From contig OX422204.1 of NCBI GenBank assembly GCA_949130485.1, positions 620,001 to 684,000 of the forward strand: a stretch of DNA of 64,000 nucleotides. The letters run 5' to 3'. The position numbers were made by a program, and so were the translations under genes. This document shows, in pieces, positions 44,720 through 53,403 of the stretch (positions are counted from its first letter, which is position 1; each line of letters begins with the position of its first letter). The notes under the pieces were generated by a model. That model saw only the letters and a list, made by a program, of their open reading frames with translations, ran no database searches and was not told where the DNA came from. This stretch comes from Agelas oroides. Taxonomy: Eukaryota > Porifera > Demospongiae > Agelasida > Agelasidae.

Positions 44720-47700
44720 ATGAAAAGTGTGCGGGTTTTATCCCAACTTGCAATCATAGCATTTCTGTATTTACAGATTTGCGCTGCGCTGGATTATGTG
44801 GATAGCGGTAAGTGCTGTTTCGCACAAAATGTTTTGCAATAAATTGTGTCATCAAGTCGTACGGGTTGCACACACCAGTAGCTTGATCTCCGTCCGCTAT
44901 TCCTATCTCCCTGCAGATGCAGTGGCACCTTTCCCTCCGACTACTGGTCCCAAACCGCCAAACGCAGACCAACACACCCTAAAAAGTGTTAATGAGTACC
45001 AACCTGACCTAGATGTTTCAGAGCCAAAACTGTCTACCACTCTTCTGGACCCTCCCAATCAAAAAGAAGAAACCAGGACCTTCATAGCTGGTAAGTTGGT
45101 TGAAATTTAATCAGCCATGTTTTGTGAGTCTACGGATCTATTAATATGAATTCCAGTGTGGTTGGCAAGGTGGACGACTTTTGCATTATTAATATTCCTT
45201 ATTCATTTTTGCAGAGGAGAGCCTGGTGGATGGTAGTGCTCTAGGCTTGGAAGCAGATTTTTTAGGGGGCTCAGGTCTTTATGCAGAGTGGAGAAGTACC
45301 CATGGGAGACCCAAACACTACAGGAGGAGAAGGAAGAAAAAAGATCATGACACAAATGGAAATAAGTTTGAGGAGAAGGAATCTTTGAAGCCCCCACTTT
45401 CTCCAGAGGAAGTTAAAGAGTTTGAGGAACTATTGCACTCCAGTGCTCACTTAAAGTCCAAGGACGAGAGCAGAAAAAGGAGAAATAGTGAAAACACTGA
45501 GAAGGAAGTGGAAACTCTTGTAGAGACGCTGGCTGAAGATGTTCAAGAGCTGCATTCAACTGAAGATGCTGAGACGGAAGAGTCTCTAGACGATATTGAG
45601 GAATCTCTAGGAGATATTGAGGAATCACTGGAGAACATTGAAGAAAGTCCAGGCGACTCTGAGGAGGAAATAGAAACTCTTGTAGAGACACTGGCTGAAG
45701 ATGTTCAAGAGTTGCGTTCAGATGAAGATGCTGAGACGGAAGAGTCTCTAGATGATATTGAGGAATCTCTAGGAGATATTGAGGAATCACTGGAGAACAT
45801 TGAAGAAAGTCCAGGCGACTCTGAGGAGGAAATAGAAACTCTTGTAGAGACGCTGGCTGAAGATGTTCAAGAGTTGCGTTCAACTGAAGATGCTGAGACG
45901 GAAGAGTCTCTAGATGACATTGAGGAATCTCTAGGAGATATTGAGGAATCACTGGAGAACATTGAAGAAAGTCCAGGCGACACTGAGGAGGAAATGGAAA
46001 CTCTTGTAGAGACGCTGACTGAAGATGTTCAAGAGCTGCGTTCTAATAAAGATGCAAAGATGGAGGATTCTCTAGATGACACTGAGGAGGAAATGGAAAC
46101 TCTTGTAGAAACACTGACTGATGATGTTCAAGAGCTGCGTTCAAATGAGAATGATGAGTTTGAAGAATCTCTGAATGACATTGAGGAATCTCTAGGAGAT
46201 ATTGAGGAATCACTAGGGAACATTGAAGAAACTCCAGGAGATGCTGAAGAGGAAATGGAGAGTCTTGTAGAGACACTGAATGAAGATGTTCAAGAGTTGC
46301 GTTCAGATGAAGATGCTGAGACGGAAGAGTCTCTAGACGATATTGAGGAATCTCTAGGAGATATTGAGGAATCACTGGAGAACATTGAAGAAAGTCCAGG
46401 CGACACTGAGGAGGAAATGGAAACTCTTGTAGAGACACTGGCTGAAGATGTTCAAGAGTTGCGTTCAGATGAAGATGCTGAGACGGAAGAGTCTCTAGAT
46501 GATATTGAGGAATCTCTAGGAGATATTGAGGAATCACTGGAGAACATTGAAGAAAGTCCAGGCGACTCTGAGGAGGAAATAGAAACTCTTGTAGAGACGC
46601 TGGCTGAAGATGTTCAAGAGTTGCGTTCAACTGAAGATGCTGAGACGGAAGAGTCTCTAGATGACATTGAGGAATCTCTAGGAGATATTGAGGAATCACT
46701 GGAGAACATTGAAGAAAGTCCAGGCGACACTGAGGAGGAAATGGAAACTCTTGTAGAGACGCTGACTGAAGATGTTCAAGAGCTGCGTTCTAATAAAGAT
46801 GCAAAGATGGAGGATTCTCTAGATGACACTGAGGAGGAAATGGAAACTCTTGTAGAAACACTGACTGATGATGTTCAAGAGCTGCGTTCAAATGAGAATG
46901 ATGAGTTTGAAGAATCTCTGAATGACATTGAGGAATCTCTAGGAGATATTGAGGAATCACTAGGGAACATTGAAGAAACTCCAGGAGATGCTGAAGAGGA
47001 AATGGAGAGTCTTGTAGAGACACTGAATGAAGATGTTCAAGAGTTGCGTTCAGATGAAGATGCTGAGACGGAAGAGTCTCTAGACGATATTGAGGAATCT
47101 CTAGGAGATATTGAGGAATCACTGGAGAACATTGAAGAAAGTCCAGGCGACACTGAGGAGGAAATGGAAACTCTTGTAGAGACACTGGCTGAAGATGTTC
47201 AAGAGCTGCGTTCAACTGAAGATGCTGAGATGGAAGAGTCTCTAGACGATATTGAGGAATCTCTAGGAGATATTGAGGAATCACTGGAGAACATTGAAGA
47301 AAGTCCAGGCGACACTGAGGAGGAAATGGAAACTCTTGTAGAGACGCTGGCTGAAGATGTTCAAGAGTTGCGTTCAACTGAAGATGCTGAGACGGAGGAG
47401 TCTCTAGATGACATTGAGGAATCTCTAGGAGATATTGAGGAATCACTGGAGAACATTGAAGAAAGTCCAGGCGACACTGAGGAGGAAATGGAAACTCTTG
47501 TAGAAACACTGACTGAAGATGTTCAAGAGCTGCATTCAGATGAGGATGCTGAGACGGAAGAGTCTCTAGATGATATTGAGGAATCTCTAGGAGATATTGA
47601 GGAATCACTGGAGAACATTGAAGAAAGTCCAGGCGACACTGAGGAGGAAATGGAAACTCTTGTAGAAACACTGACTGATGATGTTCAAGAGCTGCATTCA

Positions 47701-53403: not shown

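Follow-up and report, generated by a model that had tools for sequence, protein, structure and literature searches.

The locus at 44720-53403 of the window (the whole stretch of DNA analysed here, 64,000 nucleotides from the demosponge Agelas oroides) raises the question of how a cysteine-rich tail resembling that of RECK came to be joined to a long front of charged repeats, and of what the resulting protein might do. RECK is a Wnt7 co-receptor and metalloprotease regulator, and it is CC4 of RECK that binds Wnt7. At this locus an eight-exon model on the plus strand, with splice sites placed by eye, encodes 2,612 amino acids and a stop; all seven introns are GT..AG and there are no internal stops, which bears out the first-pass annotation in its reading of the region as one phase-consistent gene.

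Exon 1 (44720-44807) encodes a signal-peptide-like start (MKSVRVLSQLAIIAFLYLQICAA...), and exon 2 (44917-45090) is modelled to encode the N-terminal residues 30-87, which include proline. Exon 3 (45215-50276; residues 88-1774) carries an acidic block, a basic patch and a lysine-rich block, within which the acidic array spans 45505-48063 (17 units, with starts at residues 185 to 1007) and the lysine-rich array 48517-50110 (21 units of 25-26 aa each, from residue 1189). Exon 4 (50405-51869) is a single open frame that runs from an amphipathic-looking segment through Lys/Ser repeats and a Glu-rich segment into Kazal 1. The remaining exons encode the rest of the tail: exon 5 (51936-52056) lies between Kazal 1 and Kazal 2, in the position of RECK's second EGF-like domain, exon 6 (52142-52382) encodes Kazal 2 and Kazal 3, exon 7 (52638-52750) a module with IPEGSCCPVC at its end, and exon 8 (52829-53403) a RECK-type C-terminal domain and a GPI-type hydrophobic end. 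All eight exons lie on the plus strand, and the order along the protein is therefore hydrophobic start, acidic units, basic patch, lysine-rich units, Lys/Ser repeats, Glu-rich segment and cysteine-rich tail. Both ends, the hydrophobic start and the uncharged hydrophobic C-terminus, were judged from hydrophobicity only. Because exon 4 alone encodes charged sequence and Kazal 1 in one frame, their join is independent of any predicted splice, and the DNA itself shows this fusion.

Elsewhere in the window, a convergent neighbour on the minus strand (53548-54147) has a Bmt2 methyltransferase match barely above the cut-off (21.3 against 20 bits), and a 43-base unit forms a tandem array at 36707-37600 (20.8 copies, 99% match). 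An Rfam search of the window gave no matches, and no relatives were found among the phage records and viral contigs searched.

The last 397 residues of the protein (2216-2612) match a solved RECK structure (8tzp_C; E 3.6e-36, over query residues 3-300), and a Pfam scan of the tail found three Kazal_2 stretches and an Amnionless match below the cut-off, with no match reported to the EGF2 profile. The first-pass claim that the C-terminal ~400 residues follow RECK is thus upheld, matches having been found to both RECK and the Kazal_2 profile. Pfam scans covering residues 1-200 and the tail found none of RECK's N-terminal domains. Likewise, when the first 560 residues of four RECKs served as tblastn queries, the best E in window positions 35000-45300 was 0.95; the same four queries reach E 2.5e-10 at a different gene of this genome, on C4.

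A search with the window tail found six proteins: P0001, four RECKs (P0002 from Osmia and P0003 from Anneissia carry the name, while P0004 and P0005 were recognised from their Pfam domains) and a Kazal protein, P0006. P0001 has 1,042 aa and matches the window tail with E 2.2e-45; its longest contig, of 3,392 bases, would be in keeping with a transcript. A search with its own tail returned P0001 itself and, at 60%, P0007 (hypothetical protein ACROYT_G032880 of the stony coral Oculina patagonica), and from this closeness P0001 is probably a coral sequence. In both P0001 and P0007 a charged front and a RECK tail are joined in one predicted protein. The order of charge, acidic then basic, was equalled by 1 of 2,000 residue shuffles for P0001, and by none of 2,000 for either P0007 or the window protein. 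No alignable similarity was seen between the charged front in the sponge and that in the coral, and the two could be convergent. A search for full-length homologues (proteins of ~1,436-4,571 aa) gave none at E 0.001 among 3,205 candidates, and so yielded no protein of comparable size from another sponge. The architecture was also absent from the titles and abstract openings searched, a set outside which most subscription journals lie.

The RECK-type gene on C4 (about 11317650-11331706, minus strand; L010, L012) shows RECK matches in order, which begin at the N-terminus, continue across the frizzled-like region and Kazal 1-3 and close with a hydrophobic end; part of its C-terminal domain was not found, and a CC4_RECK profile search of the genome gave four matches, none above the cut-off, two of which fall at this gene. 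On the opposite strand, between the first and the next found exons of the C4 gene, lies an open frame of 381 aa, in which 23 units bear KEPACE (L010:7930-9075, plus strand). Two more RECK-tail genes, C19A and C19B, were found on C19 (1034028-1038093 and 1079328-1083161; L016, L020), each ending in a hydrophobic stretch. Upstream of them are antistasin (L015) and thyroglobulin-1 (L020) exons, and from these positions the two genes seem to carry other fronts. A genome search with the coral tail listed three matches, confined to the window gene and C19B; C19A was found by a separate search, and the number of RECK-tail paralogues is a lower bound.

The relationships of these tails were examined in a tree of ten sequences (316 of 468 columns), in which the C4 row is incomplete and has a long branch. 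The window gene, P0001, P0007, C19A and C19B were separated from five RECKs, C4 included, with split support of 100/99, and the same split was recovered in all four rebuilt trees, two of which included C4. In the ten-tail tree the window tail does not group with the RECKs, not even with the sponge's own C4 gene, and a constraint placing the window gene, C19A, C19B and C4 together was rejected (p-AU 4.9e-6). Within the second group, the window gene joined P0001 and P0007 with support of 82/87, an arrangement whose alternative was not rejected (p-AU 0.103); of the three rebuilt trees that contained the C19 genes, two placed the window gene with P0001 and P0007 and one with C19 (62/53).

Intron positions, again with splice sites placed by eye, appear to agree with this split. 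Two introns, both in phase 1, are found in all four sponge genes (window, C4, C19A and C19B): one between EGF2 and Kazal 2, and one in CCxxC|G, which in exon 7 of the window gene reads CCPVC|G. A phase 0 intron between Kazal 1 and EGF2 is present in the window gene and both C19 genes and absent from C4, and a phase 0 intron between Kazal 2 and Kazal 3 is present in C4 and both C19 genes and absent from the window gene.

By these sequence comparisons, the window gene is a member of an overlooked second RECK lineage. What is new is a sponge genome that holds one RECK-type gene together with at least three RECK-tail genes of the second lineage (window, C19A and C19B), a lineage that the coral shares. 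According to PMC12842694, sponges and corals have RECK as a single gene, and that statement does not cover the tail paralogues found here. These results also qualify the proposal, made in the first-pass annotation, that charge has replaced the N-terminal domains of RECK: the failure to find those domains stands, and the implied swapping of the front of the sponge's own RECK does not, given the separate RECK-type gene on C4 and the position of the window tail in the other lineage. Through the second lineage, the early history of RECK as Wnt7 co-receptor and metalloprotease regulator becomes testable.

The front of the window protein also contains possible processing sites. Five R-X-[KR]-R motifs, on which the first-pass annotation is silent, fall within residues 25-2216, ending at 127, 177, 1141, 1809 and 1849; 60-residue shuffles gave an expectation of 0.58 (as many in 1 of 2,000), in a test made after the motifs had been noticed. 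None occurs in any of the four RECKs. Furin may cleave the protein at these motifs, and the predicted pieces would be of 103, 50, 964 (net -353), 668 (net +65) and 40 residues, leaving an anchored remainder of 763. Each of P0001 and P0007 has a single such motif, and the two sit at corresponding positions ahead of the hydrophobic end, whereas in the window protein the motifs lie around the charged blocks.

One hint of a mineral role comes from the host genome. At three of 30 C1-peptidase loci read (of 66 matches), CGASYAF stands in place of CGSCWAF; these three loci (L056, L057 and L059) are clustered at C4:288-302 kb and look like silicatein-type relatives of C1 peptidases. A strict silicatein DNA pattern run over the genome gave no matches and missed all three. 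The serine change in CGASYAF we take to mark silicateins, and such motifs would fit, as expected, a silica-forming demosponge. A mineral role for the window protein is suggested only by these host motifs, the stony-coral counterpart and the zwitterionic nature of known silica proteins (PMC11733937).

The explanation we favour, tentatively and at rather less than even confidence, is that the gene encodes a polyelectrolyte of pericellular or skeletal matrix that furin could process, carried on an anchored pedestal of protease-inhibitor modules. The product would be a secreted, GPI-anchored protein of the second RECK-tail lineage, whose tail would serve as a membrane pedestal bearing protease-inhibitor modules. 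Its front would be a polyelectrolyte precursor with R-X-[KR]-R as the cutting sites of a furin-type convertase; the products would be a polyanion and a polycation, and a stalk of Lys/Ser and Glu-rich sequence would remain on the anchor. Within the matrix, pericellular or skeletal, the freed pieces might then bind each other, perhaps by coacervation, or associate with ions or mineral precursors. This reading is favoured because charge is joined to Kazal 1 within exon 4, the tail matches RECK and the lineage split is firmly supported, and also by the charge order of P0001 and P0007, the excess of furin-type motifs, the conserved lysine units and the silicatein-type motifs of the host. It is weakened by the possible convergence of the fronts, the modest support for grouping the window gene with the coral sequences, the different places of the furin-type motifs in sponge and coral together with the post hoc nature of the motif test, and the lack of S-x-E enrichment in the acidic block. 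The literature weakens it too: a word search of the main text of an Oculina and Stylophora skeletal-protein paper gave no RECK, Kazal or amnionless (PMC9532382), and a RECK-annotated gene of Acropora millepora appears among candidates for adaptation at CO2 seeps under symbiosis, not calcification (PMC10363134, Table 1), where the annotation does not say whether RECK or the second lineage is meant.

Somewhat less probable, though a serious possibility, is that the protein has no function in mineral and is a hydrated brush or adhesive anchored at the cell surface, its blocks binding glycosaminoglycans, DNA, bacteria or each other and its tail inhibiting local proteases. The RECK-type tail, the GPI-type end and the lysine clusters would all suit such a protein, nothing in the sequence names a mineral partner, and the symbiosis heading of the Acropora gene in PMC10363134 points the same way. 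However, the furin-type motifs would free most of the front, which a secreted product fits better.

The repeats themselves bear on whether charge matters at all. Residues 25-2216 (2,192 residues) are 48% charged and contain a single cysteine. The 16 spacings between acidic units are 54 aa in 14 cases and 33 aa in two, and the acidic part (residues 177-1037) has a net charge of -358; the lysine array has a net charge of +63 across 532 aa, with each unit K-rich first and E-rich second. The spacing analysis confirms the 17 acidic and 21 lysine-rich units counted previously. The label of lysine-rich is right as to net charge, but the units are not purely of lysine type, given the E-rich second part of each. 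Similarly, the acidic part described as low-complexity is repetitive but perhaps not simply featureless, since six helices resulted when three acidic units were folded together as a single chain with no alignment supplied, a prediction of modest confidence (pLDDT 70.9 in the best model and 47-58 in the other four). Between units, which are related copies and not independent, pN was 0.054 and pS 0.171 among 14 acidic units, and pN 0.011 and pS 0.146 among 15 lysine units of 26 aa, the lysine units being better conserved at the protein than at the DNA level. With pN below pS, the array is therefore more than a chance open frame. In searches of the whole assembly (259 Mb), in which the best candidates only were scored, all 17 matches listed at E <=0.01 for one acidic unit, and all 14 for a double lysine unit, fell within the window gene.

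S-x-E, which we take to be a Fam20C-type phosphorylation motif, occurs 62 times in the protein. It is more frequent than expected in the lysine array (19 against 7.4) and in the Lys/Ser part (5 against 0.9), and is not enriched in the acidic block (31 against 27 expected, with as many in 204 of 1,000 shuffles). As a phosphorylation signal this would be weak, because one motif recurs per unit.

An exact 786-base run recurs at an offset of 747 within the acidic array (45673-47205), reflecting either recent duplication or an effect of assembly, and the copy number of the repeats may therefore be polymorphic or assembly-affected. Read as recent expansion, the run would suit an unlikely alternative, namely a protease-inhibitor paralogue whose stalk has grown by near-neutral repeat expansion and whose charge is of little consequence except in spacing the tail, as would a tail able to accept different N-termini, which the apparent fronts of the C19 genes hint at. 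The low pN/pS, in the lysine units especially, argues against it, as do the acid-before-basic order found also in P0001 and P0007 and the furin-type motifs in excess of chance.

The link between exons 3 and 4 depends on predicted GT-AG sites only, and it is here that two adjacent genes, one with the repeats (exons 1-3) and one with the RECK tail (exons 4-8), might have been misjoined. We consider this improbable: exon 4 itself carries Lys/Ser and Glu-rich sequence along with Kazal 1, no signal-like start was seen in it, the open reading frames taken for neighbouring genes start ~280 bases upstream and ~145 bases downstream, and P0001 and P0007 are each predicted as one protein that has both charge and tail. 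That the locus is an ordinary RECK gene with CC and frizzled-like exons lost or unassembled nearby is very improbable despite the homology of its tail, being already disfavoured by the separate C4 gene that groups with RECK, by the rejected constraint and by the want of a convincing N-terminal RECK match upstream.

A bolder version of the favoured reading, to which we give a low probability, is that two RECK lineages existed before sponges and cnidarians split, and that the second, with a furin-processed acidic-basic polymer on a GPI-anchored Kazal pedestal, was inherited by silica sponges and carbonate corals as a skeletal matrix precursor.

Set against known systems, the tail of the window protein is like that of RECK, with Kazal 1, an EGF-like segment, Kazal 2-3, the CCPVC module, a C-terminal domain and a hydrophobic end in the same order. 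Unlike RECK, it lacks detected CC, frizzled-like, EGF1 or FnI_RECK domains, and has one cysteine in residues 25-2216 where all four RECKs have 49-53 in residues 25-560. With the sponge's own RECK-type gene on C4 it shares two introns, in both position and phase. Silaffins, silacidins, glassin and silintaphins are charged or zwitterionic chains, and the window protein is likened to them by description, not by sequence; the available part of the source mentions neither a Kazal module nor a GPI anchor for them, in contrast to the Kazal tail and GPI-type end seen here (PMC11733937). P0001 and P0007, its nearest rows in the tree, share a signal-like start (by eye), a front that is acidic and then basic, and a RECK tail. 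Their fronts of ~550 residues are, unlike that of the window protein, without long tandem arrays by eye, and they have two cysteine-rich modules before Kazal 1, with VWC, pacifastin and FnI-type profile matches below the cut-offs. With its charge layout, the window protein is a tangible candidate for the kind of matrix polymer that silica and carbonate builders might share.
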